This document shows positions 41,268-47,779 of a stretch of DNA of 64,000 nucleotides, piece after piece. Positions within the stretch are counted from its first letter, which is position 1; every line of letters begins with the position of its first letter. The translations under genes were made by a program, and so were the position numbers. The stretch is from contig JAIRPP010000008.1 of assembly GCA_031256955.1 (NCBI GenBank), positions 272,001 to 336,000 on the forward strand. The letters are read 5' to 3'. A model generated the notes under the pieces. That model saw nothing but the letters and a program-made list of their open reading frames with translations, ran no database searches and was not told the origin of the DNA. The DNA comes from Candidatus Methanoplasma sp. (GTDB lineage Archaea; Thermoplasmatota; Thermoplasmata; Methanomassiliicoccales; Methanomethylophilaceae).

Positions 41268-41571
41268 ATGCTCACATTCCTGCGAGGGTCTCTTCGCTAA
41301 CCTCGCGCATTATAGACGAACGCGTCTTATGCTCCTACCGTGACGCCGATTCATCTCGAAAACTTCGACATGAGTGAATATGGGTTGCCTAGGCATTGCC
41401 CGTGCGTCTGGTCGGACATACAGCAGTCCAATCTTAGGTCTCGTATAATGGACAGGTATTTAAAGATGCGTTTTTCCGGGGCGGCTCCGCGCCGCGGAGG
41501 GGGGCGGGCCCCGTTAAAAGATGTCGAATCGCGCGCCCGGGCGCGACGCGCCCTCCCCCCCCCCCATCGGG

Positions 41572-46832: not shown

Positions 46833-47165
46833 ATGAGCATGCAGGATTCGATCCAGGTCTGGATAGACAGGTTTCAGAGCAAGGTGGACTCGGACGAGGC
46901 CCTCAGGAAGGAGCTCATGCCCCTGAAGAAGACGTTCAACATGGACCTGGGGACGGAGCATTACTCCATGAGGCTGGAAGAGGGCGGCATACGCGGCTTC
47001 GCGCCCGTCCTGGCTGACGGCGCGGACGTGACCATACGCACGACCCCCGCCTCGCTGCAGGCGCTCATGGACGGTACGCTGAGGCCCATGAAGGCGTACA
47101 TAACGAAGAAGATCTCCGTCGAAGGAAAGATACAGGACCTCCTGTTCCTCAAAAAGTTCTTCTGA
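46833..47165 (+). CDS. SCP2 sterol-binding domain-like protein
   Basis: YSMRLEEGGIRGFAPVLADGADVTIRTTPASLQALMDGTLRPMKAYITKKISVEGKIQDLLFLKKFF. Confidence 0.75.
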   Translation: MSMQDSIQVWIDRFQSKVDSDEALRKELMPLKKTFNMDLGTEHYSMRLEEGGIRGFAPVLADGADVTIRTTPASLQALMDGTLRPMKAYITKKISVEGKIQDLLFLKKFF

Positions 47166-47461
47166 ACCCGCCCCCCGGTTCTCTCATCTCGCCGGCAATC
47201 GTGAGATTGCCAGCGAGGCCTATGGCATTTGGGGGGGGGGGGGTTATGCCATAGACCCGCTGACTGTGAACCTGCATGGCAGGCGTGTGAGCTCCCCGAG
47301 CCTCTCGGAGAGGGCATCTCCCTATCGGAAGATTGCCAGGAGACGGATCGCGTTGGGGGGGGGGGGGGGGAAGACCAAGGCGATCCGGTCTCTCTGACTG
47401 TAATACGCCCGTCCGGCTAAGCCGCCGGGCGACGACCCCTTTCATCTAGGATATAAAGGGG
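47164..47461. ncRNA. Structured non-coding region with two tandem G-tract hairpin modules (strand not proven, + favoured)
   Basis: Module 1 47194-47267 and module 2 47331-47401 share GATTGCCAG and CTGACTGT flanks around non-homologous but paired stems enclosing G13 (47231-47243) and G16 (47355-47370); further hairpins at 47406-47431 and 47436-47461. Confidence 0.6.
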
Positions 47462-47570
47462 CTTTCGTTTCGCATTTACGAAACCTAGACCAAATAAGAA
47501 GACATACTACTTAAAGTTTTGTATATCTTAGAGACGAATGCGAAAACGGCGGGACCGCGGGAACGTATGT

Positions 47571-47590
47571 AAAGTTTTTATACCATATAT
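47571..47590 (+). promoter_or_regulatory. Archaeal TATA-like element upstream of tRNA-Met
   Basis: gtaaagtttttatacc about 28 nt upstream of the tRNA 5' end. Confidence 0.55.
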
Positions 47591-47607
47591 GATTAAGCGC
47601 ATGCTAT

Positions 47608-47685
47608 AGCGAGGTAGGGTAGCCAGGATATCCCGTCGGGCTCATAACCCGGAGACCGATCGTTCAAATCGATCCCTCGCTACCA
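47608..47685 (+). tRNA. tRNA-Met (CAT), probably initiator
   Basis: AGCGAGGTAGGGTAGCCAGGATATCCCGTCGGGCTCATAACCCGGAGACCGATCGTTCAAATCGATCCCTCGCTACCA; A1:U72 and GGG:CCC anticodon stem typical of archaeal initiators; CCA encoded. Confidence 0.93.
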
Positions 47686-47779
47686 CTTCTCATTCCGATC
47701 TTCTCCGAGCGCGCCGCCTCGTCGCGAGAGTGGCGGGGAACCCGCCGCCCTCGCGGGCGCATGATGGCGGCCGATGCGC

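Follow-up and report, generated by a model that had tools for sequence, protein, structure and literature searches.

On balance, the spacer between a tRNA-Met gene and an SCP2-like gene of the termite-gut methanogen Candidatus Methanoplasma seems to hold a lineage-specific noncoding RNA, which would be read from the minus strand, carry one or more hairpins with a C-rich loop and act in trans on G-rich sites. The hairpin occurs in six copies in three related genomes, its stems covary, and its stability is higher on the minus strand in every copy.

Structure of the element in the window

The window, that is, the whole stretch of 64,000 nucleotides that was analysed, belongs to a genome of 1.56 Mb. 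A sequence-only reading had placed two tandem hairpin modules at 47194-47401, and inspection of the sequence found both exactly there. Module 1 runs from GGCAATC-GTGA-GATTGCC (47194-47211) through a CAG..CTG hairpin with a G13 tract (47231-47243) to ACTGT. Module 2 runs from GGCATCT..AGATTGCC (47313-47337, one bulge) through a hairpin with a G16 tract (47355-47370), two Gs of which were drawn as paired to CC in that first reading, and likewise ends in ACTGT. Folded singly as plus-strand RNA, both modules did better than dinucleotide shuffles, with z values of -2.1 (module 1) and -2.3 (module 2). The neighbours of the element are SCP2, RNase HII and tRNA-Met. The features of the region are as follows.

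46833-47165, plus strand: SCP2-domain gene, convergent with the putative RNA and a conserved neighbour at locus A (Pfam SCP2, 3.8e-10; synteny)
47194-47211, minus strand: short flanking hairpin of module 1, GGCAATC/GATTGCC, overlapping the base of the main hairpin by 3 nt
47209-47264, minus strand: hairpin of module 1, GTCAG...[C13 loop]...CTGGC, with 17 Watson-Crick and 2 G.U pairs (sequence; covariance-model matches)
47231-47243, minus strand: apical loop tract of module 1, C13 (G13 on the plus strand)
47313-47337, minus strand: short flanking hairpin of module 2, GGCATCT..AGATTGCC, with one bulge, overlapping the base of the main hairpin
47335-47398, minus strand: hairpin of module 2, GTCAG...[C16 tract in loop]...CTGGC (sequence; covariance-model match)
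47355-47370, minus strand: tract of module 2, C16 (G16 on the plus strand)
47407-47430, minus strand: hairpin of the putative leader, GCCCG..CGGGC (sequence; minus-strand fold)
47436-47439, minus strand: GGGG near the presumed 5' end, at the position of the G-box of relatives (GGGGTT, AGGGGGCTT)
47451-47457, minus strand: TATA-like box TTTATAT (sequence)
about 47508-47520, minus strand: alternative, stronger BRE/TATA-like match, AAAACTTTAAGTA
47608-47682, plus strand: tRNA-Met(CAT), divergent from the putative RNA (Rfam RF00005, 58.5 bits; anticodon from ARAGORN on orthologous loci)

Distribution and origin

Screening of 61 genomes with a loose pattern produced many chance matches and two hairpins with G tracts, one in genome G002 (G8) and one in genome G014 (G5), each immediately following the SCP2 gene, the same position as in the window. 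This site, from the SCP2-like gene to tRNA-Met, is referred to as locus A; in other members of the genus with a readable spacer, the element was not found at the SCP2 site. Covariance models, built first from four length-adjusted copies and then from five real copies, recovered the same module in these two other Candidatus Methanoplasma genomes and revealed a second site, locus B, divergent from an L7Ae-rps28e-rpl24e-ndk operon in both G014 and G002. The G002 copy beside L7Ae, the sixth, was matched with an E-value of 3.4e-6 while absent from the model-building set, and is orthologous to the G014 copy. The covariance search covered 17 genomes of the genus, 147 of the order and 390 sampled from the phylum and gave no other convincing match; no copy is present at the L7Ae site of the window's own genome, and nothing was found for the element in phage and viral collections.

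Several other candidates were discarded. One in the window's own genome (L086 on contig C2, a G11 tract with GCCAG..CTGAC ends) has no stem and was attributed to chance, as were viral pattern matches, among which a comparable stem was not seen. Another in G002 (L226 on contig C100; 16 bits, E 2) was rejected as apparently coding.

The six copies are thus shared by three genomes: the window genome (G000), G002 and G014. The tandem arrangement described earlier holds for the window genome with its two modules, but not for its relatives, whose loci each contain a single module. In a tree based on four concatenated proteins, the three genomes group as one clade with a support of 1.000. A single gain in the ancestor of this clade explains the pattern, with locus B arising later on the G002/G014 branch or disappearing from the lineage of the window. 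Although the divergence of proteins in the three genomes reaches roughly one third (RNase HII is 64-66% identical), GATTGCCAG and CTGACTGT are near-identical in intergenic DNA, which argues for selection.

Conserved structure and covariation

With the six copies aligned so as to fit the structure, both partners have changed in 10 of the 16 pairs and 97.9% of cells are paired, against 77% in shuffles; slid alignment controls collapse to less than 43% paired. At locus B the hairpin base is CAG/CTG in one genome and CGG/CCG in the other (G002 and G014), and the seven pairs of the upper stem are maintained with a different sequence in each. Related genomes therefore keep the structure of the element and carry compensatory changes in it, as is the case for structured noncoding RNAs. 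The earlier suggestion of a selected RNA structure, with stems that differ and yet stay paired, is borne out by this covariation, and comparison of the sequences makes a structured noncoding RNA very probable.

An assembly artefact of the homopolymer tracts, which the sequence-only reading had named as a possible refutation, is extremely unlikely. The genomes are assemblies and tract length rests on assembled sequence, and only the exact length could be wrong, whereas the stems and flanks recur at orthologous sites in three independent assemblies.

Strand of the RNA

The minus-strand stems of the six copies contain 83 Watson-Crick and 9 G.U pairs for a total of -145.7 kcal/mol, versus 76 Watson-Crick pairs, no G.U pair and -118.7 kcal/mol for the plus strand, the minus-strand stem being the more stable one in all six. 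Every copy has a C.A mismatch at the hairpin base on the plus strand where the minus strand has U.G, and further positions of this kind are found in G014 and module 1. All six copies have inherited the principal U.G pair indicative of the minus strand, which therefore counts as a single event, and there are few independent changes. Whole-RNA z values at five loci were -7.5, -3.8, -5.6, -4.3 and -1.6 on the minus strand and -4.7, -1.6, -1.3, -4.3 and +0.1 on the plus strand, lower on the minus strand at four loci with one tie. All five loci have TATA/BRE-like sites, scored with a crude consensus, upstream on the minus strand, and the spacing from the TATA-like box to the following TAATGGGGTT is equal in G002 and G014. 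The small flanking hairpin speaks for the plus strand, on which it has GNRA-like tetraloops in at least two copies and which is favoured by one of its G.U pairs. Weighing these features, we consider it probable that the RNA is read from the minus strand. Because stem energies and the asymmetry between G.U and C.A favour this strand, the RNA would present oligo-C, and not the oligo-G loops first proposed.

The alternative is a plus-strand RNA or an element of the SCP2 3' UTR, in which oligo-G loops pair with downstream C-rich or complementary segments or, as the sequence-only reading had envisaged, form G-quadruplexes with tract length as the switch. The modules do lie downstream of SCP2 on the same strand, module 1 and G014 have GTGA or GCAA as the plus-strand P1 loop, and pairing between the loop and downstream segments reaches p values of 0.004-0.04 at locus B. 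Such a plus-strand pseudoknot was fair at locus B and not significant at locus A, and is superseded by the minus-strand reading. At locus B, however, no gene lies upstream on the plus strand, and the 5-6 G tracts of the relatives are unsuited to a quadruplex; together with the weaker main stems in six of six copies, their C.A mismatches and the weaker or equal whole-RNA z, this renders a plus-strand RNA improbable.

As DNA the hairpins are symmetrical, and the window genome carries the unit in duplicate, as would suit a DNA-level element such as a palindromic repeat, a recombination site or a transposon-end relic, with the hairpin acting as single-stranded DNA. We hold this to be very unlikely, since only two fixed syntenic sites are occupied and inherited in one clade, dispersed copies were not found, phage and viral collections were negative, and the one-sided G.U pattern and promoter-like sites point to RNA.

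Loop tract length

On the minus strand, the loop tracts of the six copies are C5, C6, C6, C8, C13 and C16, a variation easily explained by slippage. The suggested G-quadruplex switch is unlikely as a conserved one, because the orthologous loops have only 5, 6, 6 and 8 Gs, each in one run, and long enough G tracts are thus not present in all members. The window contains 20 oligo-G runs of 8, roughly the number predicted from composition (14.8). In the genome as a whole, 42 G runs reach a length of 9 or more, which is not above base composition by a simple independent-base estimate, and at least five runs of 13-16 where the independent-base estimate gives about one. G tracts alone are not special in this genome; long tracts within conserved, covarying hairpins are.

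Other homopolymer tracts were observed in passing. The minus strand of the window has a G11 tract outside the element (41555-41565; C11 on the plus strand). In genome G012 (L046, about 2197), a G12 tract followed by AAATTATAATTTCCCC lies in the same neighbourhood, some hundreds of bases downstream from SCP2, and is unrelated to the hairpin. Several oligo-G tracts of 9-10 in the window's own genome directly follow a sequence for a signal peptide or membrane helix early in an open reading frame (L132/L137, L139, L148, L158), where they decide the continuing frame; these are candidate phase-variable surface proteins.

Comparison with known RNA families

Searches of Rfam identified only tRNAs and 5S rRNA in the whole window at gathering score and nothing relevant to the element in 47100-47700 at E-values up to 10; no Rfam match to H/ACA, C/D, RNase P or SRP RNAs was found. 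The absence of a known family, asserted earlier, thus agrees with Rfam, and the hairpin would represent a clade-restricted and previously undescribed structured RNA family. The resemblance to cobalamin riboswitches had been described as partial, and RF00174 matched neither the window at gathering score nor 47100-47700 at E-values up to 10. On the plus strand the two have short strings in common, CCCGCTGACTGTGA among them, whereas the better strand of the element is the minus strand and its neighbours include no cobalamin gene (SCP2, RNase HII and tRNA-Met at locus A, the L7Ae operon at locus B). This identity was rejected, with neither a covariance-model match nor the position of a cobalamin-gene leader.

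A sub-threshold match to drum RNA (RF02958) in the AT-rich 5' part of the locus in G002 scored 25.4 bits against a cutoff of 43, includes several mismatched pairs in an AT-rich stretch and is absent from the orthologous region of G014. Like other sub-threshold Rfam matches, it was treated as chance. A 163-bp AT-rich probe from G002 convincingly matched only itself.

Long stems with a single-stranded loop containing C-rich target-binding regions are described for PmaR of Agrobacterium (PMC6234868), and RsaE of Staphylococcus is proposed to act through a UCCC motif (PMC9266662). The element is likewise predicted, on the favoured strand, to have the long stem and single-stranded C-rich loop of such small RNAs. 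Unlike these bacterial RNAs, it is archaeal, has an uninterrupted C tract of variable length and a candidate pairing with a 5' G-box, and belongs to no Rfam family. A precedent for a trans-acting small RNA in a methanogenic archaeon is sRNA162 of Methanosarcina mazei (PMC3510493), which comes from a different lineage than the host of the element; a comparison through Rfam gave no match.

The 5' G-box and the surroundings of locus B

The C loop is complementary to a G-box at the presumed 5' end of the minus-strand RNA, which reads GGGGTT at locus A and AGGGGGCTT at locus B. With the 5' end shuffled, pairing of this G-box with the loop gave p values of 0.012 and 0.008 for locus B in two genomes and 0.03 for locus A of G002; it was not significant at locus A of G014 (p 0.33) or in the window genome (p 0.81), and support was weaker when the loop was shuffled in place of the 5' end. 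Because C tracts pair with any G run, the pairing is only a suggestion outside locus B.

The minus-strand RNA of locus B heads toward L7Ae, and a cis-regulatory, riboswitch-like leader of a nearby gene such as the L7Ae operon may be considered. At locus A, however, the minus strand has only antisense SCP2 downstream. In the genus, L7Ae is preceded by a TATA-like site of its own and by a conserved leader that separates it from the element, and no Rfam riboswitch match was found. A cis-acting leader is accordingly hard to credit.

Upstream of L7Ae in Methanoplasma genomes (L227-L241), a leader carries a conserved block, GAGCCGATGAATGATGACGG, on the strand of the gene. The block resembles the L7Ae-binding k-turn leader described for autoregulation (PMC5539422). 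Downstream of one locus B copy (L074, positions 551-569 and 740-752), ACTTTGTGTGGATTT occurs with its reverse complement TCCACACAAAGTG; the former is also found once at the matching place in G002, and these are possibly terminal repeats of a small mobile element.

Proposed function and significance

As we infer its transcription and ends, the trans-acting minus-strand RNA proposed here would be about 200-300 nt long, with one long hairpin (two in the window genome) and a C run in the apical loop. The C-rich loop would pair with G-rich, Shine-Dalgarno-like sites in mRNAs, and the 5' G-box may mask it by a pseudoknot, which is clear only at locus B, the paralogous site beside L7Ae. Slippage would vary the tract length, and any register of Cs would still pair. 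We put this C-loop mechanism forward tentatively, as a possibility that is in some doubt. It would be a long shot to go further and propose a new archaeal family in which a slippage-prone C-tract loop is reversibly masked by its own 5' G-box, tract length tuning a small RNA that mimics an anti-Shine-Dalgarno sequence and controls many mRNAs.

The open literature searched contains almost no description of small RNAs from Methanomassiliicoccales. A clade-restricted, duplicated and covarying RNA with two defined loci provides a test case for the origin of structured RNAs in archaea, as well as for the question of whether an RNA with a homopolymer loop can act as a variable regulator.
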